Below are positions 1 to 12,404 of a stretch of DNA of 64,000 nucleotides, piece by piece. The DNA is taken from positions 1 through 64,000 of the forward strand of contig JAHITX010000096.1 of the NCBI GenBank assembly GCA_018817425.1, in the 5' to 3' direction. The notes below the pieces were generated by a model. The model did no database searches and was not told where the DNA came from. It saw only the letters and a list, made by a program, of their open reading frames with translations. The first letter of the stretch is position 1. Each line of letters opens with the position of its first letter. Source of the DNA: Pseudomonadota bacterium (GTDB taxonomy: Bacteria > Desulfobacterota > Desulfobacteria > Desulfobacterales > RPRI01). Both the position numbers and the translations under genes were made by a program.

Positions 1-1
1 G

Positions 2-1753
2 GGTGCGGTAGTAAATACGGCGGCTGGTCAGGTATTGACAAACGTAGCACTTGGAGCCGGGAATAAAACAAGTCTTGGTGCAGTTGACATGAAGGGAAGC
101 GATGTAAAAGGTGCTGTGATAAATACGGCAGCGGGTCAGGTGCTGACAAATGTCGCTTTAGGGAAAGATAACACTGCTAAACTTGGCTCTGTTGAAATGA
201 AAAACAGTGACCTTAAAGGAGCTATAGTTAATACTACAGCCGGACAAGTCGTAACTAACGTAGCTTTGGGAGCTGGAAATAAAGCTGAATTAGGCGCTGT
301 CACTATGAAGTCGAGCAGTATGAAAGGGGCTATTGTAAACACTACAATGGGTCAAGCTGTAACAAATGTTGCCTTGGGAAAAGATAATAAAGCCAGTCTC
401 GGTGCTGTAAATATGGAATCAAGCAGCATGAAGGGTGCTATTGTAAATACTACAATAGGTCAAGCAGTCACAAATGTTGCTCTTGGGGCCGGGAACAAAG
501 CCAGCCTCGGATCTGCCGATCTTAAAAATAGTGATGTGAAGGGTGCAATAGTAAATACTTCGATTGGAGCCGCCATAACGAACGTTGCTTTAGGTAAAAA
601 TAATAAAGCCGGGCTTGCTTCTGTAAATTTGGAAGGCAGTAATGTAAAGGGTAATATAATCAATACGGCAGCGGGCGGAGCGGTAACAAACGTCGCACTT
701 GGCAGCAATACCAAAGCAAGTTTATCTTCTGTTGATATGAAAAACAGCACTATGAAAGGAAACATAGTAAATACGGCAGCAGGTGGAGCCGTTACTAATG
801 TTGCTTTGGGCAGTAATTCTAAAGCAAGTTTGTCTTCTGTTGATATGAAAAACAGCACTATGAAAGGAAACATAGTAAATACGGCAGCAGGCGGAGCCGT
901 TACTAATGTTGCTTTGGGCAGTAATTCTAAAGCAAGTTTATCTTCTGTTGATATGAAAAACAGTACTATGAAAGGAAACATAGTAAATACGGCAGCAGGT
1001 GGAGCAGTGACAAACGTTGCACTTGGCAGCAATACCAAAGCAAACCTTTCATCAGTCAACATGGAAAACAGTACGATGAAAGGAAACATTGTAAATACGG
1101 CAGCAGGTGGAGCAGTTACTAATGTTGCTTTGGGCAGCAGATCCGAAGCAAACCTTTCGTCAGTAAACATGAAAAACAGTACTATGAAAGGAAATATAGT
1201 AAATACGGCAGCAGGCGGGGTCGTTACTAATGTTGCTTTAGGCAGCAGATCCGAAGCAAACCTTTCATCAGTCAACATGGAAAACAGTACTATGAAGGGA
1301 AATATCACAAACACAACTGTTGGCGGGGTGGTTACTAATGTTGCTTTAGGCAGCAATACTAAGGCGAATTTAGGTTCTGTGGATATGAAAAACAGCAGCA
1401 TGCAGGGAAATATTTCAAACAGAGCGGCAGGCGGAGTTATGACTAATGTTGCTGTTGGAAGTAATTCAAGGGCAAACCTTGGTTCGGTTGTTCTTGAAAA
1501 CAGTACTGTGCATGGCAATATTTCAAACAGAGTGAGCGGAGGTGTTGTAACAAATATTGCCGTTGGATCAGGAAGCGAAGCGAATTCGGGGTCTGTTGTT
1601 GTTAAGAATCGTAACATAGGAGGCGCCGGCACCAGCTCAGGAACAGGTCTTGTGATCAATGATACCAGGGTTCCTTTCGGTGGTATGGGTGTACATAACA
1701 CCAATGTTGCTATTGGAGGAACTTCAAATAAAAATTCAGTTGTTTACAAATAG
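2..1753 (+). CDS. 36-residue-repeat surface protein, curlin-like (5' partial)
   Basis: The frame is open to the left edge, so the start and any signal peptide lie outside the window. The visible part is almost entirely a 36-residue (108-bp) tandem repeat with consensus elements TNVALGS, KASLSSVDM, KNSTMKGNIVNT and AAGGAV. About 15 units are seen, and the central ones (roughly 700-1250) are nearly identical in DNA. The last ~50 residues leave the repeat and end in NSVVYK. Composition is rich in Asn, Ser, Gly, Ala and Val, with no Cys and few aromatics, as in curlin-type amyloid subunits and beta-solenoids. The next gene has the same 36-residue period, and a CsgG-like pore gene follows, so I infer an exported fibre subunit. 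A passive adhesin or ice-binding-like solenoid is the alternative. The repeat architecture is seen directly; the role is inference. Confidence 0.75.
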   Translation, partial: GAVVNTAAGQVLTNVALGAGNKTSLGAVDMKGSDVKGAVINTAAGQVLTNVALGKDNTAKLGSVEMKNSDLKGAIVNTTAGQVVTNVALGAGNKAELGAVTMKSSSMKGAIVNTTMGQAVTNVALGKDNKASLGAVNMESSSMKGAIVNTTIGQAVTNVALGAGNKASLGSADLKNSDVKGAIVNTSIGAAITNVALGKNNKAGLASVNLEGSNVKGNIINTAAGGAVTNVALGSNTKASLSSVDMKNSTMKGNIVNTAAGGAVTNVALGSNSKASLSSVDMKNSTMKGNIVNTAAGGAVTNVALGSNSKASLSSVDMKNSTMKGNIVNTAAGGAVTNVALGSNTKANLSSVNMENSTMKGNIVNTAAGGAVTNVALGSRSEANLSSVNMKNSTMKGNIVNTAAGGVVTNVALGSRSEANLSSVNMENSTMKGNITNTTVGGVVTNVALGSNTKANLGSVDMKNSSMQGNISNRAAGGVMTNVAVGSNSRANLGSVVLENSTVHGNISNRVSGGVVTNIAVGSGSEANSGSVVVKNRNIGGAGTSSGTGLVINDTRVPFGGMGVHNTNVAIGGTSNKNSVVYK

Positions 1754-1907
1754 CGTAATTGGCAAAAAACAAAAAAATGGTGGGTCTTTCTTTACAAATA
1801 ACTAATTATATGGTTTATGCCCAGTATATGCATAGGAAGGAGAAAATCACGACAAACAAAAATTTTATAAATGTAACTATTTCACAATAAATATGAGAAA
1901 TCATTCA

Positions 1908-1936
1908 CTGACAACAAAAATTTTATGAAGTATAAA
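1908..1936 (+). promoter_or_regulatory. sigma70-type promoter for the second repeat-protein gene
   Basis: CTGACA (1908-1913), a 17-bp spacer, then TATAAA (1931-1936), about 58 bp upstream of the ATG at 1994. The -35 differs from consensus at one base. A similar AT-rich block (ACAAACAAAAATTTTATAAA, near 1851-1870) lies some 60 bp upstream and may be a second site or a duplicated control element. Confidence 0.55.
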
Positions 1937-1993
1937 TAAACTTAAAACCGAGAGAAAAAAATTAACAACAACCAAACCAAGGAGGAATGTAAA

Positions 1994-2812
1994 ATGAAAA
2001 AAGCTTTATTAGTAGTAGGTATTGTTTTAATCAGTGGTTCATTGGCTTTTGCAGGTTCAGATGTTAAAGGCGCAATTATTAACAAATCTGATGTAAAGGG
2101 CGCAGCCAATATCGCTATGGGCAAAGGCGCAACAGCTGACATGGGTACAGTAAAGATGAAAGATTCCAGCTTAAAAGGTGCTATCATCAACCAATCCAGT
2201 GTAAAGGGTGCAGCAAATATCGCTATGGGCCAGGGTGCAAAAGCTCAGATGGGTACCGTTGATATGAACAAATCCAGTGTAAAGGGTGCTATAATTAATC
2301 AGTCCGATGTAAAGGGTGCAGCCAATATCGCTATGGGCAAAGGCGCAACCGCTCAGATGGGAACAGTAAGTATGGATAAATCTGATCTTAAAGGTGCTAT
2401 CATCAACAAATCCAGTGTAAAGGGTGCAGCTAATATCGCTATGGGCAAAGGCGCAACAGCTCAGATGGGTACTGTAAGCATGAATAAATCCAATGTAAAG
2501 GGTGCCATAATCAATCAGTCTGATGTAAAGGGCGCAGCCAATATCGCTATGGGCCAGGGAGCAAAAGCTCAGATGGGTACTGTTAGCATGGATCAATCTG
2601 ATCTTAAAGGTGCTATCATCAATAAGTCCAGTGTAAAGGGTGCAGCTAATATTGCTATGGGCAAAGGCGCAACAGCCAGAATGGGCACAGTTGATATGAG
2701 CAAATCCAGTGTAAAGGGTGCTATAATCAATCAGTCTGATGTAAAGGGTGCAGCAAATATCGCTATGGGTCAGGGCGCTGAATCCAATATGGGTTCTGTA
2801 GTGCTTGAGTAG
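1994..2812 (+). CDS. secreted 36-residue-repeat protein, curlin-like subunit
   Basis: A 272-residue protein with a Sec signal peptide (Lys-Lys then ALLVVGIVLISGSLAFA, cleavage near residue 20). The rest is about seven copies of a 36-residue repeat. Each copy contains SSVKGAANIAMGKGATAQMG, then a TVSMDKSDLKGAIIN-like stretch, so the S-x-[VL]-K-G-A-x-x-N motif occurs twice per unit. The pattern of regularly spaced Asn, Gly, Ala and Gln recalls curlin repeats (S-x5-Q-x-G-x2-N-x-A), but the period is longer. A good SD (AAGGAGG, 1979-1985) precedes ATG 1994. It has the same period as the upstream protein, so the two are probably paralogous major and minor subunits exported through the CsgG-like pore encoded downstream. 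Amyloid formation is inference. Confidence 0.75.
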   Translation: MKKALLVVGIVLISGSLAFAGSDVKGAIINKSDVKGAANIAMGKGATADMGTVKMKDSSLKGAIINQSSVKGAANIAMGQGAKAQMGTVDMNKSSVKGAIINQSDVKGAANIAMGKGATAQMGTVSMDKSDLKGAIINKSSVKGAANIAMGKGATAQMGTVSMNKSNVKGAIINQSDVKGAANIAMGQGAKAQMGTVSMDQSDLKGAIINKSSVKGAANIAMGKGATARMGTVDMSKSSVKGAIINQSDVKGAANIAMGQGAESNMGSVVLE

Positions 2813-2838
2813 TTGTTATGATGCTGTAATAAAAAATG

Positions 2839-2873
2839 TTACAAGGCTGCGGGAAATATCCGCAGCCTTGTAA
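2839..2873 (+). terminator. strong hairpin after repeat-protein gene
   Basis: A perfect 14-bp stem (TTACAAGGCTGCGG at 2839-2852 with its complement at 2860-2873) and a 7-nt loop, 27 bp after the stop codon. There is no long U-run, so it could be a terminator or an mRNA-stabilising stem that raises the level of the subunit message over downstream genes. Confidence 0.6.
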
Positions 2874-3086
2874 ACCGTAAACTCGCAAAATTATTAATAA
2901 CAAGATCAGTTAAAACAACAATTGTTTCAGGCCCTCCATATTTTTATCTTTATTATTTATAACGGATGTTTTATTATAACAAATAAATAGGTTTTACTAA
3001 ACTGTTAAATTACAACAAATTATGACAAACAACATCGTAACATTTTTAGGGGTAATCTGAATAACATATCAGATATAGGGGGGCAT

Positions 3087-3419
3087 ATGATCAAAAAATA
3101 TTTTATAATGTTTTGCTGTATAATGATCGTTCCTGTTTCATTTGCACAATATTGCCGGGGCGGTGATCTGGATGATGATATTTCAAAATACACTGATGAT
3201 TCTGTCAGTGCAGACGATGAATTGGGTAAAAAAGATAATAATATCAACTTCATTGTTCTTGATGCTATGGCAGCTGCTTCGAGGAAAGCCAGTAAAGGAC
3301 AACAGGCTGGAGAGAAGGATAGCAGCGGAGATATAACGGGTGATAAGAATGAGAACAGCGTCGTGGTAGGGCCTGGCACTCAGACTGGAAATATTTATAA
3401 TATTCAGGTTATGAAATAA
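3087..3419 (+). CDS. small secreted protein of the repeat-fibre locus
   Basis: A 110-residue protein with an N-terminal signal peptide (MIKKYFIMFCCIMIVPVSFA, cleavage near residue 20). The mature part is acidic, with DLDDDISKY and many Asp and Ser, a short Ala/Ser helix-like patch (DAMAAASRKAS) and a Gly/Asn-rich C-terminus, GPGTQTGNIYNIQV. A G-rich SD (AGGGGGG) precedes ATG 3087. I do not recognise a family. The position between the repeat subunits and the CsgG-like pore suggests an accessory such as a minor subunit, nucleator or chaperone (the place CsgB, E or F takes in curli loci), but no such domain can be read from the sequence. Confidence 0.6.
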   Translation: MIKKYFIMFCCIMIVPVSFAQYCRGGDLDDDISKYTDDSVSADDELGKKDNNINFIVLDAMAAASRKASKGQQAGEKDSSGDITGDKNENSVVVGPGTQTGNIYNIQVMK

Positions 3420-3494
3420 GCCGTGGCAGATTTTATTTAAGATAAAATAGCCGCAGCCGATAAAATGTAAATATATAATTTGAAAGAGGGGAAG

Positions 3495-4856
3495 ATGAGA
3501 TACATATTCCGGAATAATAAAGCCTGCAAGAAAATGCTAATCGTTTTGACTATTATGTCATTTTCCTTGCTTCTTGCTTCTTGTGCGTCAATTGATCCGG
3601 CCGATACAGATGTTCAACTTAAAACAGAGCCGCCGGCAGCTAAAATCACCTCATTTACGCAGGCCCTGGCAGACCTTGGATTAATGACTGAAATCTATAA
3701 TGTTGATGTTGTTAAAATACAGAGCAATCCTATAGGTGATAATACCGGCACATCGGGTTCTACCGGCGGAGAAATACCAAGAGATATAACCGAAATGCTA
3801 AAGAGTTCTCTTAATTCAATCGGTGGAAGAGTTACCTTTATTCCTTATGATCCGTCATTTATTCAAAACCAGATGGTAACCGGTTATTCGAATTTTGATG
3901 AAAAACTTATACCTGATATAGTAGTAAGCGGCGGTATTACAGAATTTGACAGGGGATTGGAAACAAGGGGTGACGGCACTGATGTCAGCGCCGGTGCTGA
4001 GTTTACCGGATTGCCTGATTACCTTCCATCAAAAGAAGTAAAGCTTAGATATGGTGATGCAGGAAAAACAGGCTTGGCCAGCATAACACTTGATTTTAAC
4101 CTTCTTGATTTCAGAACTATGGCAGGTGTACCCAGAATGAGTGCCGTGAACACCATGAGGGTATCAAAAGCCATGAATGAAAGGGAATTAGGAGTAAGCC
4201 TTTTTGGTCAGACATTCGGAAGAAAGGGCTCTATAAAGAAAGTTCAGGGAAGGCACCATGCGGTAAGACTTCTTGTTGAATTGAGTATGATCCAGATTGT
4301 TGGAAAATATAATGGACTTCCTTACTGGAGATTATTGGGCGACGATGCCATGCCTGATAAAGATGTAGAAAGTGCTGTAAAGAAGTTTTATTACAAATTA
4401 ACTGATTCAGACCGATTATTTAAAATTCAGGAATGGCTGTATCTCCATGGATATGATGTCGCACTTACCGGGCAGCTTGATAATGCAACTGTTGCAGCAT
4501 TAAAACAGTTTGACAGCAGTTTTAATAAAATAGATGCGGATTTATTCCTTAGAATATATGCATCAATTCCTATAAAAGAAAGTACATTAGGCAGAAGAAA
4601 CCAGTTAGATAGGATTATGAACCAGCCCGCAGAAGTGGTTGAGGCCAGTGCGCCTGTTCAACAGCCTGTACAACAGCAACAAGCTCAGGCACAAGCTTAT
4701 GTGGAACCTCAACAGGAAGTTGCCGCTGAACCAGCACAACAACCCGCTCCTGCCGTCTCAAAACAGCAACAGGCGGCTCCAGCTCCAGCTGCTGCAAGCG
4801 TTTCCAGGAGAAAACCAAATTCTATCGGCAGAATCCTTACAGATGAAGAATGGTGA
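3495..4856 (+). CDS. CsgG-like outer-membrane secretion lipoprotein with peptidoglycan-binding domain
   Basis: A 453-residue lipoprotein: signal peptide with lipobox LLASC (Cys ~30). A CsgG/HfaB-like domain follows over about residues 45-290. Recognisable elements are DIVVSGGITEFD (like the CsgG DIMLTGGI..YD), SITLDFNLLDFRTMAGVPRM and the VNTMRVSK strand, then the closing helix HAVRLLVELSMIQIV and the end strand NGLPYW. A PG_binding_1-like helix bundle (IQEWLYLHGYDVALTGQLD, about 310-350) and a Gln/Pro/Ala-rich tail follow. CsgG forms the nonameric outer-membrane channel for curli subunits; here the added domain could anchor the pore to murein. ATG 3495 follows GAGGGG; an in-frame TTG at 3480 is less likely. 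Repeat proteins upstream support a secretion role. The CsgG assignment rests on motif order, not on a search. Confidence 0.7.
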   Translation: MRYIFRNNKACKKMLIVLTIMSFSLLLASCASIDPADTDVQLKTEPPAAKITSFTQALADLGLMTEIYNVDVVKIQSNPIGDNTGTSGSTGGEIPRDITEMLKSSLNSIGGRVTFIPYDPSFIQNQMVTGYSNFDEKLIPDIVVSGGITEFDRGLETRGDGTDVSAGAEFTGLPDYLPSKEVKLRYGDAGKTGLASITLDFNLLDFRTMAGVPRMSAVNTMRVSKAMNERELGVSLFGQTFGRKGSIKKVQGRHHAVRLLVELSMIQIVGKYNGLPYWRLLGDDAMPDKDVESAVKKFYYKLTDSDRLFKIQEWLYLHGYDVALTGQLDNATVAALKQFDSSFNKIDADLFLRIYASIPIKESTLGRRNQLDRIMNQPAEVVEASAPVQQPVQQQQAQAQAYVEPQQEVAAEPAQQPAPAVSKQQQAAPAPAAASVSRRKPNSIGRILTDEEW

Positions 4857-5476
4857 TAAATATGGGCTTATGCTGCAGAGTGGGACTTGCCATAATTTTA
4901 TTCTTTGTAGTATGCCTTTTGACATCAGCTTTTGCCGGCAATAAGAAACTGGTTGATAAAAGAACCGTGGAAATGGATGGCCAGAATAAACAAATGGTCA
5001 GACAAATTCCAAATCTGCCGAAAAATGGAACAGTTGATGCGAAAGCGAGAGTTGTTAATGAAGGAGGAAGTCTGGTTTTCGATATATATCATGTCAAAAC
5101 CTCTGTTAAGGAAGAAAGTATAGATTTTAGCGGAAAACAGAAAAATAAAGAAACAAAAGAAGAAATAATTTCTGAGCCTGAAACAAATGCAGGAAATTCA
5201 GGCTCAGATGACAGGCAGCAAGAAACGGGAAGTAACGATATATCAAGTTCTGGTATGCAGGAAAACAATGATGACTTAAATGTTGCCTCTGAACAAAATA
5301 AAGAAGAGATAAATACAGAGTTAACTTCTGAGACAGACATAGAAGTTTCAGACTTAAGTGAAGCTCAGCAAGAAGTCACAAGTCAAGATGAGTCAGTGCC
5401 CAATCCTGATGGTGATGTTAAAAATGAGATAAATTTAAAGATTGAGCAGCCGGAAGAGACTCAACAGAATAATTAA
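4850..5476 (+). CDS. exported acidic protein with low-complexity tail
   Basis: A 208-residue protein overlapping the pore gene by 7 bp, so the two are probably translationally coupled; ATG 4862 is an alternative start that gives a cleaner signal peptide. A hydrophobic signal (GLAIILFFVVCLLTSAFA) is followed by AGNKK, the same junction as in the next exported protein at 5570. A compact part with NGTVDAKARVVNEGGSLVF and DIYHVKTSV (about residues 60-90) may be a small beta domain. The remaining ~115 residues are disordered, rich in Glu, Ser, Asn, Asp and Gln. No family is recognised. Location suggests a periplasmic or surface helper of the fibre system. Confidence 0.6.
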   Translation: MVINMGLCCRVGLAIILFFVVCLLTSAFAGNKKLVDKRTVEMDGQNKQMVRQIPNLPKNGTVDAKARVVNEGGSLVFDIYHVKTSVKEESIDFSGKQKNKETKEEIISEPETNAGNSGSDDRQQETGSNDISSSGMQENNDDLNVASEQNKEEINTELTSETDIEVSDLSEAQQEVTSQDESVPNPDGDVKNEINLKIEQPEETQQNN

Positions 5477-5569
5477 ATAAGTATTATTTGTTCGATCAAG
5501 TATATTGTTAAAAAGATAGATAAAGATGGCAATGAGTTTGAATTACTCCAAAAGGAGGAGGGAAGTTCT

Positions 5570-6313
5570 ATGGTAACCAGATGTTTTAAAAGTATTTTAA
5601 TTTTATTGATTTGTGTGATATTTTCAGCGCCTAACGTATTAGCCGGCAATAAAAAAATGATGGCTATCATGGCAGCAAAAAACGATGCGATGAGGGGGCT
5701 TACAGAACAGGTATATGGCCTGAAAATCCGTGCCAGCGAAGAAGTTAGAGATATGGCTGCGGACAGTTATGTCGGAAAAACCGATTCAAAAACATCGGCA
5801 GTCATGTCCGGAATTAAGATTTCAGACATAGCCTATGATTCAAAACAAGATATTGCAAGAGCCACAGCTACAATGACGGCCAACCAGATTGTAAATATTG
5901 AGGGGGCAGACGTTGCTTTAAGCGGAAAAGTTTTCAAGCATGTAGGCTTTGGGACAAGCTCTCCGGCTAATGCAGGCCCATTAAAGGCATTAAGGGCAGC
6001 ACAGATAGATGCCTATAAACAATTGGCGCAGCAGATTGCAGGATTTACACTTGAAAGCCAGACATCAGTTGAAAATTATATGCTTAAATCAGATTTTATT
6101 AAAACAAAAGTTCAGGCGTCTCTTGCTTTTGCCGAGATCGTTGATTTTGGATGGGATGAAGCCGGTGATGCTTTTGTAAAGATGGTTATCAGCATAGATG
6201 ATGTATCTGCGATGCTTGGAGAAGCTGTTGTAGGTGCAGGAGATAAATTCGAGGTTGAAGGCCAGGGTGCTCTTGTAGATGATTTCAGAAAATCCAAAGC
6301 TGCGAAAAAATAA
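5570..6313 (+). CDS. LPP20/FlgT-N-like periplasmic protein
   Basis: A 247-residue protein with a signal peptide ending in NVLAG, then a helix-strand pattern typical of the LPP20 / FlgT N-terminal fold. This pattern occurs twice: AAKNDAMRGLTEQVYGLKI (about 30-48) and ALRAAQIDAYKQLAQQIAG (about 140-158), each followed by strands (ATATMTANQIVNIEG; AGDAFVKMVIS). LPP20-domain proteins are often encoded beside CsgG-like proteins and in flagellar or outer-membrane assembly loci. A strong SD (AAGGAGGAGGG) lies before ATG 5570. Likely a periplasmic partner of the CsgG-like pore. The domain call is by eye. Confidence 0.6.
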   Translation: MVTRCFKSILILLICVIFSAPNVLAGNKKMMAIMAAKNDAMRGLTEQVYGLKIRASEEVRDMAADSYVGKTDSKTSAVMSGIKISDIAYDSKQDIARATATMTANQIVNIEGADVALSGKVFKHVGFGTSSPANAGPLKALRAAQIDAYKQLAQQIAGFTLESQTSVENYMLKSDFIKTKVQASLAFAEIVDFGWDEAGDAFVKMVISIDDVSAMLGEAVVGAGDKFEVEGQGALVDDFRKSKAAKK

Positions 6314-6390
6314 AATGGGATTGATCTGAAAAAGTTATAAAAGGTCTTATATCCGGCGATTATTACCATAACACTATGAACATTAATTAA

Positions 6391-6447
6391 AAAATTCCTC
6401 TTCTTAGTCCTTCGATATACGGGGGCATTGGGAAGAGGATTTTTTTT
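6391..6447 (+). terminator. rho-independent terminator
   Basis: TTCCTCTTC (6395-6403) pairs with GAAGAGGA (6432-6439) and is followed by a run of eight T. It closes the transcript that contains the CsgG-like and LPP20-like genes. Confidence 0.7.
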
Positions 6448-6485
6448 AACTAAATATTACTTCTATGATTAAAGGAGATCTTAAA

Positions 6486-6785
6486 ATGAAAGATAAGTTA
6501 TGGAAAGAAAGAATAAAATATTTTCTTTTGGGTATACTTGTTGTTACAGGAATAATGTTTTTAGCCGGTGCAGATTCTTTGAATCCACCTCCGCCTAATT
6601 ATGGCAGATTTCAAATATCTTCATGGGCAACTTCTCTTGGTGACAATTCAGGAGCTGTAGGAGCATTTGTTGTTGATACTATTACAGGTGAAACAAAAAC
6701 AGTTTATGGTAGAATTTATGGTAACCCCGGTGATGGCAAACTCATAAAAAATGAGTTGCGAAAACCCTTTATTGCTATAGAATAA
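6486..6785 (+). CDS. small membrane-anchored or exported protein, unknown
   Basis: A 99-residue protein. An N-terminal basic stretch (KDKLWKERIKY) precedes a hydrophobic segment (FLLGILVVTGIMFLAGA) that is a signal anchor or signal peptide. The soluble part has PPPPNYGRFQISSWATS and GAFVVDTITGETKTVYGR, which resembles a short beta-hairpin module in which a value is displayed with its metadata; I cannot name a family. ATG 6486 follows AAAGGAGA; the in-frame ATG at 6465 lies upstream of that SD and is rejected. It stands alone between two hairpins. Confidence 0.55.
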   Translation: MKDKLWKERIKYFLLGILVVTGIMFLAGADSLNPPPPNYGRFQISSWATSLGDNSGAVGAFVVDTITGETKTVYGRIYGNPGDGKLIKNELRKPFIAIE

Positions 6786-6834
6786 ACCCAATATAGGCTA
6801 ATAAAATTTTTAAAAGAATTTAAAACATTGTAAG

Positions 6835-6856
6835 AGCTGACTGGAAAGAGTCAGCT
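6835..6856 (+). terminator. short perfect hairpin upstream of the DUF2807 gene
   Basis: AGCTGACT (6835-6842) and AGTCAGCT (6849-6856) form an 8-bp stem with a 6-nt loop, 46 bp before the next start codon. There is no U-run, so it is a weak terminator or an mRNA 5' structure. Confidence 0.4.
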
Positions 6857-6902
6857 GAATCACTACAATTTATAAATACCTGATATAAGGAAAGGAGAAC
6901 AT

Positions 6903-7694
6903 ATGAAGGCAACTCACTATTATTTAATAATATTGTTTATTATTCTTTCCGTAATGTTATTGAGTGCAAATAAAGCTGATGCGAGCGGAATATCTATAAA
7001 TTTAGGTGATGGCAGCGCTAGTGATATATCAATTGATGGAGGTGTGGCGCAGTCAGGAAATATTTCAATTGATGGAGGTGTCGTAAGCTCTGGTAGTGGA
7101 GGCTGCGGAAGTGGTATTGAGGGGAATGGAATTGATAAGAAGGAAAAAAGAGTTGTATCTGAATTTAAATCTGTAGAGATAGACGGTGCCTTTAATGTTT
7201 ATATCGAATGTCAAAAGAAAAAAAGTATAGAGGTAAGGGGTGACAGCAATATATTACCCCATATCATAACAAGAGTCGTGGGAAATACTCTTCAAATTAC
7301 TTCAAATAAAACTATATGCCCGAAAAAATTGCTTGAAGTTAGGGTATCTGTAGACAATGTTGAAAAAATATTGGTTTCGGGTGCTGTTGATCTTTTAATT
7401 TCCGGAGTAAATAATAATGGCCTTGATGTTGAAGTTGATGGGGCAGTAGATGTAAAAGCATCTGGAAAAACAAAGAATTTAAAGCTTGATATATCCGGTT
7501 CAGGCGATATTAAAGCAAAGGAACTTAAAGCTGAAAATGTAGATGTAATAGTTAACGGAGCCGGCAATGCGATTATAAATGTTTCTAAAAAACTTAATGC
7601 TGAGATAAACGGTGCCGGTGATATTACTTACTATGGTAATCCAAAAGAAGTCGTTAAAGATGTTTCAGGGGTAGGCGATATTATCAAAAAATAA
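6903..7694 (+). CDS. secreted DUF2807 (GIN-domain, putative adhesin-like) protein
   Basis: A 263-residue protein. After a signal peptide (about 1-27) come two 12-residue repeats (DISIDGGVAQSG, NISIDGGVVSSG) and a Gly-rich linker. A DUF2807 domain follows (about 80-260), with the usual beta-solenoid-like runs: FKSVEIDGAFNVYIE near its start, LLISGVNNNGLDVEVDGAVD, LDISGSGDIKAKELKAENVD and LNAEINGAGDITYYGNP. DUF2807 proteins are exported and form right-handed beta structures; a function is rarely known. A strong SD (AAGGAAAGGAG) lies before ATG 6903. Its place at the end of the repeat-fibre locus and its own short repeats suggest another surface component. Confidence 0.75.
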   Translation: MKATHYYLIILFIILSVMLLSANKADASGISINLGDGSASDISIDGGVAQSGNISIDGGVVSSGSGGCGSGIEGNGIDKKEKRVVSEFKSVEIDGAFNVYIECQKKKSIEVRGDSNILPHIITRVVGNTLQITSNKTICPKKLLEVRVSVDNVEKILVSGAVDLLISGVNNNGLDVEVDGAVDVKASGKTKNLKLDISGSGDIKAKELKAENVDVIVNGAGNAIINVSKKLNAEINGAGDITYYGNPKEVVKDVSGVGDIIKK

Positions 7695-7825
7695 TATTAT
7701 ATTTTGTAAGTTGTAATTCAATTTACATGTTTTAATAACAATATCAATAAATAACCGCATATTGCATGCTTTTCGCTTTCATACTTTTATTTTAAGGTTG
7801 TTGATTCAGTAAAAACGTAAACGGC

Positions 7826-7854
7826 TTGACACCTGTAGGTGGAGTATGTTAGAT
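7826..7854 (+). promoter_or_regulatory. sigma70-type promoter upstream of the acidic-protein gene
   Basis: TTGACA (7826-7831), a 17-bp spacer, then TTAGAT (7849-7854), about 65 bp before the ATG at 7919. The -35 is perfect and the -10 weak. Confidence 0.5.
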
Positions 7855-7918
7855 TTCAAGTCATTGTGAGGACTTGTTTAATTCCCGTATTTTGAAAAAC
7901 CTAAAAATTGGGGGTGCA

Positions 7919-8482
7919 ATGGACGAAAAGGATAAATCGGGGCAAGAACCTTCTGAAAATGAACCTTTTAAAGACTCGGAATTGATGAGCCTTATTAATG
8001 ACTTAAAAAATTCCATAGATAGCGATGATGAAATCATTGAACTTACTGAAGATATGATAGTATCTTTGGAAGATGAAGTGATTGAACTTACAGATATTGT
8101 CGAAGCCGCTGGTACAGTTAATCCTGTTGGAAATGAACAGGAAATTGTAATGAAAGATCTTGAGGAAGATATAGTAGATTCTGATGAGTATATAAAAGAT
8201 GATTTTGCTGCTTCCTTAGGAATGGAAATTGAGAGTGAAATAGATTTAGCGGAGGAATTTGCTGAAAATAAAACATTTGATTTGGAAGAAGAATCCCCAA
8301 TAGGCTCAGGAACAATCAATGTATCGCCCCAACAGGTTGAAGCCGCGATTGAGCGGGTGGTCCAAAAAATATTGGGAGATAAAATTGATAGCATACTGAT
8401 TGAGGTAATAGAAAGGGCTGTTAAACAGGAAATTATAAGATTGAAAAATGTTCTTCGTGTTGATGAAAATGATTTTGATTGA
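7919..8482 (+). CDS. acidic cytosolic protein, possibly PopZ/DUF2497-like C-terminus
   Basis: A 187-residue, strongly acidic protein (runs such as DSDDEIIELTEDM and EVIELTDIV) without a signal peptide. The N-terminal three quarters look disordered. The last ~45 residues are amphipathic helices (AIERVVQKILGDKID, LIEVIERAVKQEIIRL), a layout seen in DUF2497/PopZ-like polar organisers and in small response-related proteins. The start was chosen at ATG 7919 behind GGGGGT; the frame continues upstream only to a TTG. It is followed by a terminator and then valS. The family call is weak. Confidence 0.5.
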   Translation: MDEKDKSGQEPSENEPFKDSELMSLINDLKNSIDSDDEIIELTEDMIVSLEDEVIELTDIVEAAGTVNPVGNEQEIVMKDLEEDIVDSDEYIKDDFAASLGMEIESEIDLAEEFAENKTFDLEEESPIGSGTINVSPQQVEAAIERVVQKILGDKIDSILIEVIERAVKQEIIRLKNVLRVDENDFD

Positions 8483-8611
8483 ACATAATTTTATATTTTC
8501 GCGGACATTTTTTTATATCAATTATTGATCTTAGCTTGTATCCATTACATTTTGTAAATGTCTTCCGGGTTCAGATAGGCAGACAGAATTGATTATTATA
8601 GATTTTTTAGA

Positions 8612-8645
8612 TACCCTGTAGCTCTTGCTGCAGGGTAGTTTTATT
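8612..8645 (+). terminator. rho-independent terminator
   Basis: TACCCTGTAGC (8612-8622) pairs with GCTGCAGGGTA (8627-8637) around a TCTT loop, followed by a T-rich tract. It separates the acidic-protein gene from valS. Confidence 0.7.
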
Positions 8646-8888
8646 TAGGGGCTTATATTTCGTTTTAATATAAAGTTAACTATTGCGTTACGAAGTTATA
8701 TTATTGTAAATAAAGGCTTATCGGTTTGTTAGCCTATTTGCTTGATTTCTGCTTTTTTCATCATTGCAGTTTACAGGTAAGAACAGTTCATTTTCTTGCT
8801 TTTTGCGTATTAAACTTTTATAAATCCGTCTGATTTGAAAATTACTATGAATCCGTCAGGATTTTATATATTATTTGGAGTATTGTTT

Positions 8889-11558
8889 ATGAGTTCAGAT
8901 TTACTTGAAAAGAGTTATGATCCTAAAGGTGTTGAAAAATACTGGTATGAATTCTGGGAAAAAGAAGAACTTTTTGCAGCCAGTGAGCAAAGTGATAAAA
9001 AAAGTTATTCAATAGTTATTCCTCCTCCTAATGTAACGGGTGTACTTCATATGGGGCATGCCCTTAATATCACTATGCAGGATATCCTGTGCCGCTACAG
9101 AAGATTGCGTGGAGATAATGTGCTTTGGATGCCGGGTACTGACCATGCCGGGATTGCTACACAAAACGTTGTCGAAAAGAAACTTGCCGCCGAAAATACT
9201 GACAGGCATAAACTCGGACGGGAAAAATTTATCGAGGCGGTTTGGGAATGGCGAAATCAATACGGAAGTGCGATCATCAATCAATTGAAACGATTGGGTG
9301 CTTCCTGTGATTGGAAACTTGAACGCTTTACCATGGACGAAGGCCTTTCAATTGCAGTTCGCAAAGTTTTTGTTCAGCTTTATAACGAAGACCTTATTTA
9401 CCGTGGCAATTACATAATAAACTGGTGCCACCGCTGTCATACCGCTCTTGCGGACCTTGAAGTAGAACATGAGGAAATCGACGGCCATCTTTATCATATA
9501 AGATATCCTTTCCCGGACGGATCAGGCAGTATTGTGGTTGCCACAACACGTCCTGAGACTATGCTTGGTGATACCGCGGTTGCTGTTAATCCTGATGATA
9601 AGAGATACCAGAACATAAAATCATCTTCGGTTATACTACCTGTTATAAACAGGCAGATTCCAATAATCAGAGATACTTATGTTGACATGACTTTTGGAAC
9701 CGGAGCCTTAAAAGTTACTCCTGCCCATGATCCCAATGACTTTGAAATAGGAAAACGCCACAGCCTTCCTGAAATTAAAGTAATTGATGATAACGGAAAA
9801 ATGACAGCAGATGCCGGAAAATTTGAAGGGCTTGACCGCTTTGAATGCAGAAAAGCTGTTGTCAAAGCTTTAGAAGAAGATGGGTTATTAGAAAAAATTG
9901 AGCCTATAAAACACAATGTGGGGCACTGCTACAGGTGCAAAACAATTATAGAGCCGAATTTATCAAAGCAGTGGTTTGTAAAGGTAAAGCCTCTTGCAAA
10001 AAAAGCAATTGAAGCTGTCGAAAATAAAAGAACAAGAATTGTGCCGGAAATGTGGACAAATACCTACTATGACTGGATGAATAATATACGAGACTGGTGC
10101 ATTTCCCGCCAGATCTGGTGGGGGCATCAGATACCTGCATGGACATGTGAAAAATGTCTTGATCTTGTTGTTGCAATGGAAGCGCCGGCAACATGCCCTA
10201 AGTGCGGATCCGGCAATCTTGTACAGGAGACTGATGTTCTTGATACATGGTTCAGCTCGGCTCTATGGCCCTTTTCTACTATGGGATGGCCGGAAGAGAC
10301 CAAGCTGCTTAAAACCTTTTACCCTACATCCGTTCTTGTTACAGGCTTTGATATACTTTTTTTCTGGGTAGCGCGTATGATGATGATGGGACTACATTTT
10401 ATGAATGATGTCCCGTTTAAGGATGTATATGTTCATGCGCTGGTAAGAGATGAAGACGGCAAAAAGATGAGCAAATCAAAAGGAAACGTAATTGATCCTT
10501 TAAACATTATTGATCAATACGGAACCGATTCTTTTCGTATGACACTTGCTGTTTTTGCCGCTCAGGGCAGGGATATTAAAATGTCGGAAAAAAGAGTTGA
10601 AGGTTACCGGCATTTTATAAATAAATTCTGGAATGCTGCCCGTTTTGCTCTTATGCATTTAACCCAAAATCAGTCTGAGTTAAAATTTGTGAGCATGTCT
10701 CTTCCCGATAAATGGATACTTGCAAGGCTTAAGAATGTAACTGATATTGTTGCAGACGCTATAGACAATTACAGGTTTAATGATGCGGCAAGTACTCTTT
10801 ACAATTTCGTATGGCATGAGCTATGCGACTGGTATCTTGAAGCCATTAAACCTTGTCTATACGGCCATAAAGGAGAAGAGAATAAAACTGCTACCTTAAG
10901 TGTTTTACAAAGGGTGTTTCATGATGTGCTTATTTTGCTTCATCCTTTCACACCCTTTGTAACGGAAGAAATCTGGCATAAATTCCCCGGAACACAAGGC
11001 TCGATAATGAAAGCAGTATTTCCTGCTGATGCAAATGATTTCAAATCTCTGTTATGCGATTCAATGGCAGAGCATAGCATGAATATTGTTATGGAGGTTA
11101 TTACCGGCATAAGAAATATTAAAGGCGAAATGAATATTGCGCCTTCAGCATCATTGGATGTGATTTTGCATTCGGAGAATGACTCTTTTAGAAGTATAGT
11201 TTCAGATAACGAAGATATTATTATTAATCTTGCAGGTCTTAAAACTTTTGTATCTGAAAAGTCAGGTGTAAGACCAAAGAAGGCAGCTACAACTGTAATT
11301 GGCGATGCAGTAATTTATGTTTTACTGGAAGATATAATAGACTTTTCCAAGGAAAAAGAACGCCTTGAAAAAGAACTTACAAAACTGAAAAATGAGATAT
11401 CCGGATTAATCAAAAAGCTTAACAATGAGGATTTTCTCAAAAAAGCCCCCGATGATGTAGTGGAAAAAGTAAAGGATAAACACAGTTTAGTACTGGCAAA
11501 ACAACAGAAAATTATTTCAAATCTTGAAAAAATGAAAAGTATTGAAGAAGAACAATAA
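8889..11558 (+). CDS. valS: valyl-tRNA synthetase
   Basis: An 889-residue class I aminoacyl-tRNA synthetase charging tRNA-Val in the cytosol. The HIGH motif reads PPNVTGVLHMGHAL (residues ~42-55) and the KMSKS motif GKKMSKSKGNVIDP (~530). TTRPETMLGD marks the CP1 editing domain and WCISRQIWWGHQIPAW the core. Two Cys pairs (CEKC, CPKC) near residue 430 probably bind zinc. A C-terminal coiled coil (KERLEKELTKLKNEI onward) is the usual ValRS tRNA-binding arm. Length is normal. ATG 8889 is preceded by TTGGAG; earlier in-frame starts are rejected because they add residues not seen in the family. It starts a short operon with nadC and the rhomboid gene. Confidence 0.97.
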   Translation: MSSDLLEKSYDPKGVEKYWYEFWEKEELFAASEQSDKKSYSIVIPPPNVTGVLHMGHALNITMQDILCRYRRLRGDNVLWMPGTDHAGIATQNVVEKKLAAENTDRHKLGREKFIEAVWEWRNQYGSAIINQLKRLGASCDWKLERFTMDEGLSIAVRKVFVQLYNEDLIYRGNYIINWCHRCHTALADLEVEHEEIDGHLYHIRYPFPDGSGSIVVATTRPETMLGDTAVAVNPDDKRYQNIKSSSVILPVINRQIPIIRDTYVDMTFGTGALKVTPAHDPNDFEIGKRHSLPEIKVIDDNGKMTADAGKFEGLDRFECRKAVVKALEEDGLLEKIEPIKHNVGHCYRCKTIIEPNLSKQWFVKVKPLAKKAIEAVENKRTRIVPEMWTNTYYDWMNNIRDWCISRQIWWGHQIPAWTCEKCLDLVVAMEAPATCPKCGSGNLVQETDVLDTWFSSALWPFSTMGWPEETKLLKTFYPTSVLVTGFDILFFWVARMMMMGLHFMNDVPFKDVYVHALVRDEDGKKMSKSKGNVIDPLNIIDQYGTDSFRMTLAVFAAQGRDIKMSEKRVEGYRHFINKFWNAARFALMHLTQNQSELKFVSMSLPDKWILARLKNVTDIVADAIDNYRFNDAASTLYNFVWHELCDWYLEAIKPCLYGHKGEENKTATLSVLQRVFHDVLILLHPFTPFVTEEIWHKFPGTQGSIMKAVFPADANDFKSLLCDSMAEHSMNIVMEVITGIRNIKGEMNIAPSASLDVILHSENDSFRSIVSDNEDIIINLAGLKTFVSEKSGVRPKKAATTVIGDAVIYVLLEDIIDFSKEKERLEKELTKLKNEISGLIKKLNNEDFLKKAPDDVVEKVKDKHSLVLAKQQKIISNLEKMKSIEEEQ

Positions 11559-11579
11559 CTTTTTTTGGGATGTTATAAT

Positions 11580-12404
11580 ATGCACTCATTAAAGCATCTG
11601 ATTCAAATCGCACTTGAAGAAGATATAGGCTCCGGTGATATTACCACGGATTATACTGTTGATCCGGAAATAAAAGGCAAAGGCATAATTGTTGCCAAAG
11701 AACCTCTTGTCATAGCAGGTCTTGATGTAGCCAGGGATGTTTTTACTTTTATCGATTCAGAAGTTATTTGCAGACCTTTTTTTAAAGATGGGAATTTGGT
11801 CAAAAACGGCGAAACAGTAATGGAGATTGAAGGAAAGCTTTGTGTTCTTTTAAAAGGTGAGCGCATTGCTTTAAATTTTCTGCAGCGTTTATCCGGAATT
11901 TCAACAAACGTTCGGTCATATGTCGAACTTTTTGATAATAAAAAAATCCGCCTTGTTGATACACGGAAAACCATACCTGGCTGGAGAGTTCTGGAAAAAT
12001 ATGCTGTCAGGGTAGGGGGTGCATATAATCATAGAATCGGATTATATGACGGTGTTTTAATAAAAGATAATCATATCGCCGCATGTGGCGGAATAAAAAA
12101 AGCGATTGAGCGTGTTCGCAATAAAATATCACATCTGATAAAAATAGAAGTAGAAGTTTCGGATCTTATTTCCCTAAAAGAAGCTCTTGCCGCAAAAGCC
12201 GATGTTATTATGTTAGACAATATGAATATCAGCCAGATTAAAGAGGCAGTGTCATTAATTGGCAAAAAAGCAATGGTTGAAGTTTCCGGCAATATTACAA
12301 AAGAAAACCTGAATTTGTATTCCGATACCGGGGTTGATATTATCTCAATTGGTGCTCTTACCCATTCAGCAAGAAGCATGGATTTAAGTATGCGTATTAT
12401 CTAA
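11580..12404 (+). CDS. nadC: nicotinate-nucleotide pyrophosphorylase (carboxylating)
   Basis: A 274-residue quinolinate phosphoribosyltransferase making nicotinate mononucleotide from quinolinate and PRPP in NAD synthesis. Signature blocks are ALEEDIGSGDIT (N-terminus), RIALNFLQRLSGI, LVDTRKTIPGWR (the DTRKT-x-PG-x-R active-site loop), YNHRIGLYDGVLIKDNH and ADVIMLDNM plus EVSGNI for the barrel. ATG 11580 is preceded by GGGA at 9-nt spacing. The stop overlaps the next gene by one base (TAATG), and valS ends 21 bp upstream, so the three genes are probably co-transcribed. Confidence 0.96.
   Translation: MHSLKHLIQIALEEDIGSGDITTDYTVDPEIKGKGIIVAKEPLVIAGLDVARDVFTFIDSEVICRPFFKDGNLVKNGETVMEIEGKLCVLLKGERIALNFLQRLSGISTNVRSYVELFDNKKIRLVDTRKTIPGWRVLEKYAVRVGGAYNHRIGLYDGVLIKDNHIAACGGIKKAIERVRNKISHLIKIEVEVSDLISLKEALAAKADVIMLDNMNISQIKEAVSLIGKKAMVEVSGNITKENLNLYSDTGVDIISIGALTHSARSMDLSMRII

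Follow-up and report, generated by a model that had tools for sequence, protein, structure and literature searches.

Most of what is known about CsgG comes from the curli system, and the locus described here raises the question of whether the same fold may also export and assemble another kind of surface fiber. This locus occupies positions 1 to 7.7 kb of the window, the 64-kb stretch of DNA that we analyzed (the first 64 kb of contig C96, JAHITX010000096.1, in the 5.1-Mb, 147-contig genome of a Desulfobacterota bacterium, GCA_018817425.1). A preliminary description of the sequence had proposed a curli-like fiber locus comprising two adjacent genes for proteins made of 36-residue repeats (here called RepA and RepB), a CsgG-like lipoprotein, an LPP20/FlgT-N-like protein, three small exported proteins, and a DUF2807 protein. 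Every gene that it named was found at its coordinates, all on the plus strand (Table 1). Our analysis indicates that the locus probably directs CsgG-type outer membrane export and assembly of a long-repeat β-solenoid fiber. The gene set appears to represent a route to surface fibers that has not yet been described; it is not described in any of the titles or abstract starts listed by our literature searches of open-licence PubMed Central (PMC) papers. CsgG-profile matches outside curli loci have been called likely paralogues (PMC3521004); PMC10553843 is a further reference.

The genes of this set recur together. Among 291 genomes of the order, including the genome of the window, the pore gene is present in 27, the repeat in 22, and both in 20 (hypergeometric P = 5e-23, kinship ignored). 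In the phylum, the pore was detected in 4 of 198 genomes (two of them weak matches) and the repeat in 2 of 198, namely, the genome of the window and G147, where it lies beside the pore. A scan of named genomes yielded 60 loci, which with L038 and L041 make 62 distinct loci; several are cut by contig ends, L037 and L039 duplicate L060 and L088, and two genomes have two loci each (L075/L096 and L076/L094). A repeat gene lies near the pore in 39 of the 62 by hidden Markov model (HMM) search; BLAST brings in eight divergent repeat proteins and raises the count to 47. The linkage in relatives whose absence would have refuted the preliminary description was thus found. By HMM, the remaining genes occur in 53 (3087-type), 41 (LPP20-like, any match in the locus), 37 (6465-type), and 25 (4850-type; 24 by BLAST cluster) loci, and a DUF2807 gene is present in 24. 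Relatives of the pore are found in several phyla; judged by record titles, their sources include Nitrospirota, gammaproteobacteria, an anammox bacterium, and reducers of sulfate and metals, mostly as metagenome bins. With pore relatives at so many distinct loci (62, of which 47 have a nearby repeat gene), we rejected the idea that the locus is an artifact of a single metagenome bin.

The central gene of the set is predicted to encode a CsgG-fold protein. An AlphaFold2 model built from a 48-protein alignment (mean pLDDT, 80.5; pTM, 0.71) gave 25 Foldseek matches at E values of ≤0.001, all 25 to CsgG chains (8 entries; best, 1.8e-9; TM score, 0.46 by target length), and four long strands of the model lie at the positions of the CsgG membrane hairpins. 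VIA-align matched the model to CsgG over 213 residues with a Z score of 15.6, ranking it over FlgT (11.6) and PelC (10.5); the root mean square deviation (RMSD) of 6.8 indicates that pieces of the fold are arranged differently. Comparison of the family profile with Escherichia coli CsgG by hhalign returned a P value of 3.1e-5 (probability, 72.9%; 237 columns), and the lipobox cysteine, Cys30, is invariant in all 48 aligned proteins. The CsgG assignment is thus upheld by predicted fold, although the Pfam CsgG model (PF03783) scores the window protein at 13.1 bits, below its cutoff of 20.8 bits; this model matches 7 of 48 family members at E values of ≤0.01. The NCBIfam HfaB model (NF037935) does not match the window protein at E values of ≤1. 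Outside the CsgG-aligning part, the protein has an extra helical domain (amino acids 304 to 376) with a weak, below-cutoff match to PG_binding_1, a low-complexity linker rich in Q, A, and P, and the C-terminal tail GRILTDEEW. Ten other CsgG-domain matches are present in the same genome. Some relatives have additional CsgG-domain and FlgT/FlgO-like genes beside the cluster (L034:9489-14842 and L038:1254-4000), and the pore gene of G004 is spread over two overlapping frames (L036:10296-11662, on a contig shared with L095), by frameshift or sequencing error.

The tail links the pore candidate to the LPP20-like gene. A GRxLxxx[ED]W-type tail ends 33 of the 48 pore proteins in the alignment, and in the 61 loci with room downstream, an LPP20-like gene follows 39/39 pores with such a tail and 1/22 without it. 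In other words, 39 loci have both features, 21 have neither, 1 (L054) has only the LPP20-like gene, in a divergent form, and none has only the tail. L054 comes from an isolate, Geomonas sp. Red32, and has repeat and 3087-type genes besides the pore gene. In practice, the tail criterion was that the protein ends in EW or DW. Two pores counted as tailless are a fragment (L097) and a split frame (L098), without which the figures are 39/39 and 1/20; L074, which ends at a contig edge, was left out of this table and of the tree, and L101 contains a masked stretch. Tailless L051 has two weaker LPP20-profile matches farther away (135 bits, on the other strand, and 86 bits). On the tree, the tail and the LPP20-like gene each change 5 times and agree in 47/47 rows; only LPP20 matches of >300 bits were counted there, so that L054 (162 bits) was scored as absent. 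As for the protein itself, the label LPP20/FlgT-N-like stood in its first half: the product passes LPP20 (PF02169; 32.5 versus 25.9 bits), as 10 of 17 family members do at E values of ≤0.001, and does not match FlgT_N. Its profile retrieved lipoproteins from the PDB (best E, 2.5e-6) and, more weakly, chains named FlgP (0.0011 and 0.0019). FlgP forms rings (PMC12222027).

RepA and RepB are built from a repeat whose period is exactly 36 residues. Every spacing between motif starts is 36, and Tandem Repeats Finder (TRF) detects 108-nucleotide arrays in the genes, in agreement with the earlier report of two adjacent 36-residue-repeat genes. The first of these lacks its 5' part because the contig begins within it. 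Contig C61 ends in the same 139 bases with which the window starts, and on that contig repA begins with an apparent signal peptide, 0.7 kb downstream of secA; the joined frame encodes 720 amino acids with 18 motif starts, all 36 residues apart, although the repeat number may have been altered by assembly. The consensus is KGxVxNxxxxxxxxNxAxGxxxxANxGSVxxxNSxV, with G2, N6, N15, G19, and A24 each conserved in at least 98% of 404 units, and the number of repeats varies, with up to 37 domain matches in a single open reading frame (ORF). RepA has no Cys or Trp, and mature RepB has no aromatic residue, Pro, or Cys. AlphaFold predicts RepB to be a β-solenoid (pLDDT, 93; pTM, 0.86) with strands recurring every 36 residues; the repeats fill the protein from residue 25 onward, leaving no sequence for a C-terminal cap. 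Apart from the pentapeptide matches discussed below, the many Pfam and NCBIfam names on the repeat proteins (flavodoxin, CsgE, Staphostatin_B, Hirudin, DUF4172, and others), most without an individually passing stretch, were set aside as repeat artifacts, as was an above-cutoff CsgE match in the L064 repeat protein, which has no passing stretch. The repeat also appears elsewhere in the same genome, where a FecR-domain protein (L018:8871-9977, minus strand, contig C73) ends in about three copies. Repeat matches in similar frames (230 to 371 amino acids) lie off the contig of the pore in 9/10 genus genomes; FecR was checked in the L018 protein only.

A strong stem-loop lies about 15 nucleotides downstream of the repeat gene. 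It is more stable than all 20 mononucleotide shuffles in 30/32 gaps (gaps of 40 to 450 nucleotides only, from 31 loci, with L068 entering twice through overlapping frames; the gaps failing in one run were L077 and one L068 frame). By the same measure, the comparison gaps gave 1/30 (3087-type to pore), 3/27 (pore to LPP20), and 9/13 (LPP20 to 6465-type), and further gaps gave 5/11 (repeat to repeat), 3/9 (6465-type to DUF2807), and 3/13 (LPP20 to DUF2807). Across six genus members, 5 of the 14 pairs have changed on both sides, and 98.8% of hairpin cells are paired, compared with at most 46.4% when the structure is slid. The hairpin of the window has no U-run on the plus strand and is therefore not a classic terminator; it is possibly an attenuator or an mRNA stabilizer. 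There is no Rfam match within positions 1 to 12000.

Between the repeat genes and the pore gene lies a gene for a small exported protein with a C-terminal, weakly repeat-like NSVVxGxGxxxxGxI module. In L059 and L068, too, it adjoins the repeat genes, and there both stand behind the pore set. The 32 family members have no Pfam match better than 0.013, and the family has no PDB match better than 0.085. The simplest guess is that it is an adaptor or nucleator. In L073 (219-943), 3087-type genes occur in tandem, the second with two copies of an SVxLxxGxKVKGD module.

Together, these features suggest the following model. RepA and RepB would cross the inner membrane by way of their signal peptides and then thread, in unfolded form, through a pore that several copies of the CsgG-fold lipoprotein form together. 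On the cell surface they would stack as β-solenoids, each 36-residue repeat forming one layer that Asn, Gly, and Ala ladders hold in place. The 3087-3419 protein may take the role of CsgF or CsgB, and the LPP20/FlgP-like protein may form a periplasmic ring, tied to the pore by the C-terminal tail, in the role of CsgE, which it perhaps replaces. The hairpin following the fiber gene could keep subunit mRNA in excess over mRNA of the export genes. The fiber interpretation of the preliminary description is thus partly supported, with secretion of the repeat proteins through the pore and their polymerization as steps that we infer. Tentatively, and short of calling it probable, one may go further and see here a separate CsgG-type fiber class, present in several phyla, in which a tail-docked LPP20/FlgP-like ring replaces CsgE, a DLDDGIS protein replaces CsgF/CsgB, and solenoid subunits with 36 residues per layer stack end to end.

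Several observations weigh against the fiber model, beginning with the pore and its partners. The loop at the position of the CsgG constriction is five residues shorter and has an aromatic residue in 6/48 members. In CsgG the constriction residues are Tyr, Asn, and Phe (PMC7304575), and the gate of a pore with this shorter, mostly nonaromatic loop must differ from that of CsgG. No CsgE and no CsgF were found in 10 genus genomes (0/10 each; 5 of the 10 are at least 90% complete and at most 5% contaminated), with a positive E. coli control, confirming the absence noted earlier. The likeness of the 3087-type protein to the repeat is weak (hhalign score, 14.4; the best of 100 column shuffles reached 12.8), and the association of tail and LPP20-like gene comprises 3 independent pairs on supported branches (sign test P = 0.25), a number with which that test cannot reach significance. 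The pore was not detected in G008 and G009, which have the repeat, nor was the repeat in 7 genomes that have the pore; in G005 the repeat match is off the contig of the pore. Finally, a TolC/HlyD/ABC-type export set lies near the pore in 4/62 loci. This last point bears on the possibility that the CsgG-fold lipoprotein is no pore at all but, like PelC or FlgT, forms a ring or scaffold in the periplasm, with the repeat proteins reaching the surface otherwise or staying in the periplasm. We regard this as very unlikely: PelC and FlgT do share the fold, and an LPP20/FlgP-like partner is present, but CsgG aligns best, long strands in the model occupy membrane-hairpin positions, and no such export set is near in the other 58 loci (by BLAST clusters). 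In L064 (12309-15895), an outer membrane efflux protein, an HlyD-type protein, and an ABC ATPase follow a few kilobases behind the pore, with similar genes in L065, L067, and L075 (Pfam for L064, clusters for the others).

The remaining points against the fiber model concern the repeat proteins. AlphaFold is prone to confident solenoids for regular repeats, and Foldseek with the RepB model found no solved structure at E values of ≤0.001. The RepB profile matches PDB chains of pentapeptide-repeat proteins (best E, 1.7e-4), and RepB matches two NCBIfam pentapeptide models at 1.5e-7 and 1.2e-6, far below their cutoffs, with two individually passing stretches each. These matches would suit adhesins that fold as nonpolymerizing β-helices resembling those of pentapeptide or autotransporter proteins, a reading compatible with export by the pore that we nonetheless think doubtful. 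In its favor, RepA as a whole passes the pentapeptide cutoff (PF00805; 31.6 versus 20.2 bits, with no single stretch passing alone), and the top VIA-align match of RepB is the autotransporter β-helix Vag8 (7akv; Z, 15.8; RMSD, 2.8; 183 residues). Against it, RepB itself has no PF00805 match in Pfam, the 36-residue period is not divisible by five, Foldseek reaches pentapeptide proteins at E values of 0.12 or worse only, and the repeats leave no room for a cap at the end of RepB. The probabilities that we attach to this and the other alternatives are not mutually exclusive.

Comparison with known systems shows likenesses to several of them and differences from each. Like curli of E. coli, it combines a CsgG-fold lipoprotein with exported repeat proteins predicted to be β-solenoids; unlike curli, it has a repeat of 36 rather than about 23 residues (PMC10192328), a pore with an extra domain and tail and a different constriction loop, and no CsgE, CsgF, or curlin repeat (PF07012, 0/10 genus genomes, with a positive E. 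coli control). In Caulobacter HfaABD, too, a CsgG-like protein, HfaB, works together with surface proteins, in that case anchor proteins (PMC6707917). On this model, the pore of our locus would deliver repeat proteins that stay at the surface and hold exopolysaccharide or matrix instead of forming a free fiber. The PG_binding_1-like domain could fix the pore protein to the wall, and the HfaB model gives weak matches to distant family members (L041, E = 0.006; L099, E = 0.066; 15.7 and 12.4 bits versus 300). Such an anchor nevertheless seems unlikely to us, given the different partner proteins, the lack of an HfaB match for the window protein, and the variable repeat number; moreover, none of the ten recurring or semirecurring neighbors scanned is a polysaccharide gene, the other neighbors being unscanned.

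The repeat itself resembles that of FapC in the Fap system of Pseudomonas, where the repeat length is 35 to 40 (PMC12392863). The two have an NxAxGxGN kernel in common, with matching register; for the three FapC repeats, scores as high arose in 12, 14, and 17 of 2000 shuffles. The following conserved Asn is one place off. Fap also differs in that the repeats of our locus are in tandem without long linkers and the export protein is of CsgG rather than FapF type. PDB searches with the RepB profile, RepA, and the unit profile found no FapC chain at E values of ≤10; we therefore do not claim homology to FapC and treat the likeness of the kernel as a lead only. Neither FapC nor CsgA is among the 50 VIA-align matches listed for RepB, which excludes nothing. 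The LPP20-like product resembles LPP20/FlgP lipoproteins in its profile matches, while its gene stands outside a flagellar locus and would serve an export pore. From pentapeptide-repeat proteins, which match RepA and RepB weakly, the locus differs in its period and in the CsgG-fold pore alongside. Cable bacteria fibers and the partner adhesins of ANME were also considered and gave no match in the parts of the sources available.

Table 1. Features of the locus, in coordinates of the window
Feature	Coordinates	Strand	Remark
RepA, large 36-residue-repeat protein, 5' end missing at contig start	2..1753	+	remainder on contig C61, L017:8417-8965
RepB, exported, seven 36-residue repeats, predicted β-solenoid	1994..2812	+	
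14-pair stem-loop directly 3' of repB	2839..2873	+	
Small exported protein, DLDDGIS family (3087-type), proposed adaptor/nucleator	3087..3419	+	
CsgG-fold outer membrane lipoprotein (predicted), proposed pore	3495..4856	+	
Helical domain of pore protein, aa 304-376, weak PG_binding_1 match	4404..4622	+	
C-terminal tail GRILTDEEW of pore protein	4827..4853	+	
Exported protein (4850-type), overlaps pore gene end	4850..5476	+	
LPP20-like exported protein, weakly FlgP-matching, proposed periplasmic ring/cap beneath pore	5570..6313	+	
Small protein with single N-terminal membrane segment (6465-type)	6465..6785	+	true start probably 6486
Exported DUF2807 protein (head GIN domain), final gene of conserved set	6903..7694	+	

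Sequence comparison with the nearest relative, G006, gave ratios of nonsynonymous to synonymous substitution rates (dN/dS; own script, with 6465-6785 left out) that are all well below 1: 0.13 for the repA part, 0.07 for repB, 0.15 for 3087-3419, 0.11 for the pore gene, 0.33 for 4850-5476, 0.10 for the LPP20-like gene, and 0.18 for the DUF2807 gene. The gene overlapping the pore gene is thus the fastest evolving of those compared. Two of the three small proteins described earlier as exported fit that description; the third, from 6465-6785, has one N-terminal membrane segment and, by eye, no clear cleavable signal, and contains the conserved region GRYQISxW...GAFVxDTxTGETKxVY. The DUF2807 protein is present as described. 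Promoter-like sites number 30, inside the range of shuffles (25.3; standard deviation, 5.2).

Other genes recur near the pore in some relatives. An HtrA-like protease (Trypsin_2 plus PDZ) is encoded downstream on the same strand, at most 6.5 kb away, in 11/62 loci (e.g., L034:7194-8714, on a contig shared with L045); no HtrA-like ORF is among the ORFs listed for positions 1 to 12000 of the window. Divergent Desulfobulbus-type loci (L082:3822-15138 and, similarly, L081, L083 to L086, L089, and L091) share, in part or whole, genes for an FHA sigma-54 activator, an FHA-ABC transporter, a von Willebrand A protein, and a protein kinase (Pfam for L082 only, clusters for the others). These genes perhaps serve in regulation of the locus.

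Together, these results suggest that, across several lineages, the CsgG fold is used for a further surface protein that has a gate and an adaptor of its own. The locus also yields a concrete peptide-protein docking prediction, between the tail of the pore candidate and the LPP20/FlgP-like protein, and a very regular predicted β-solenoid.

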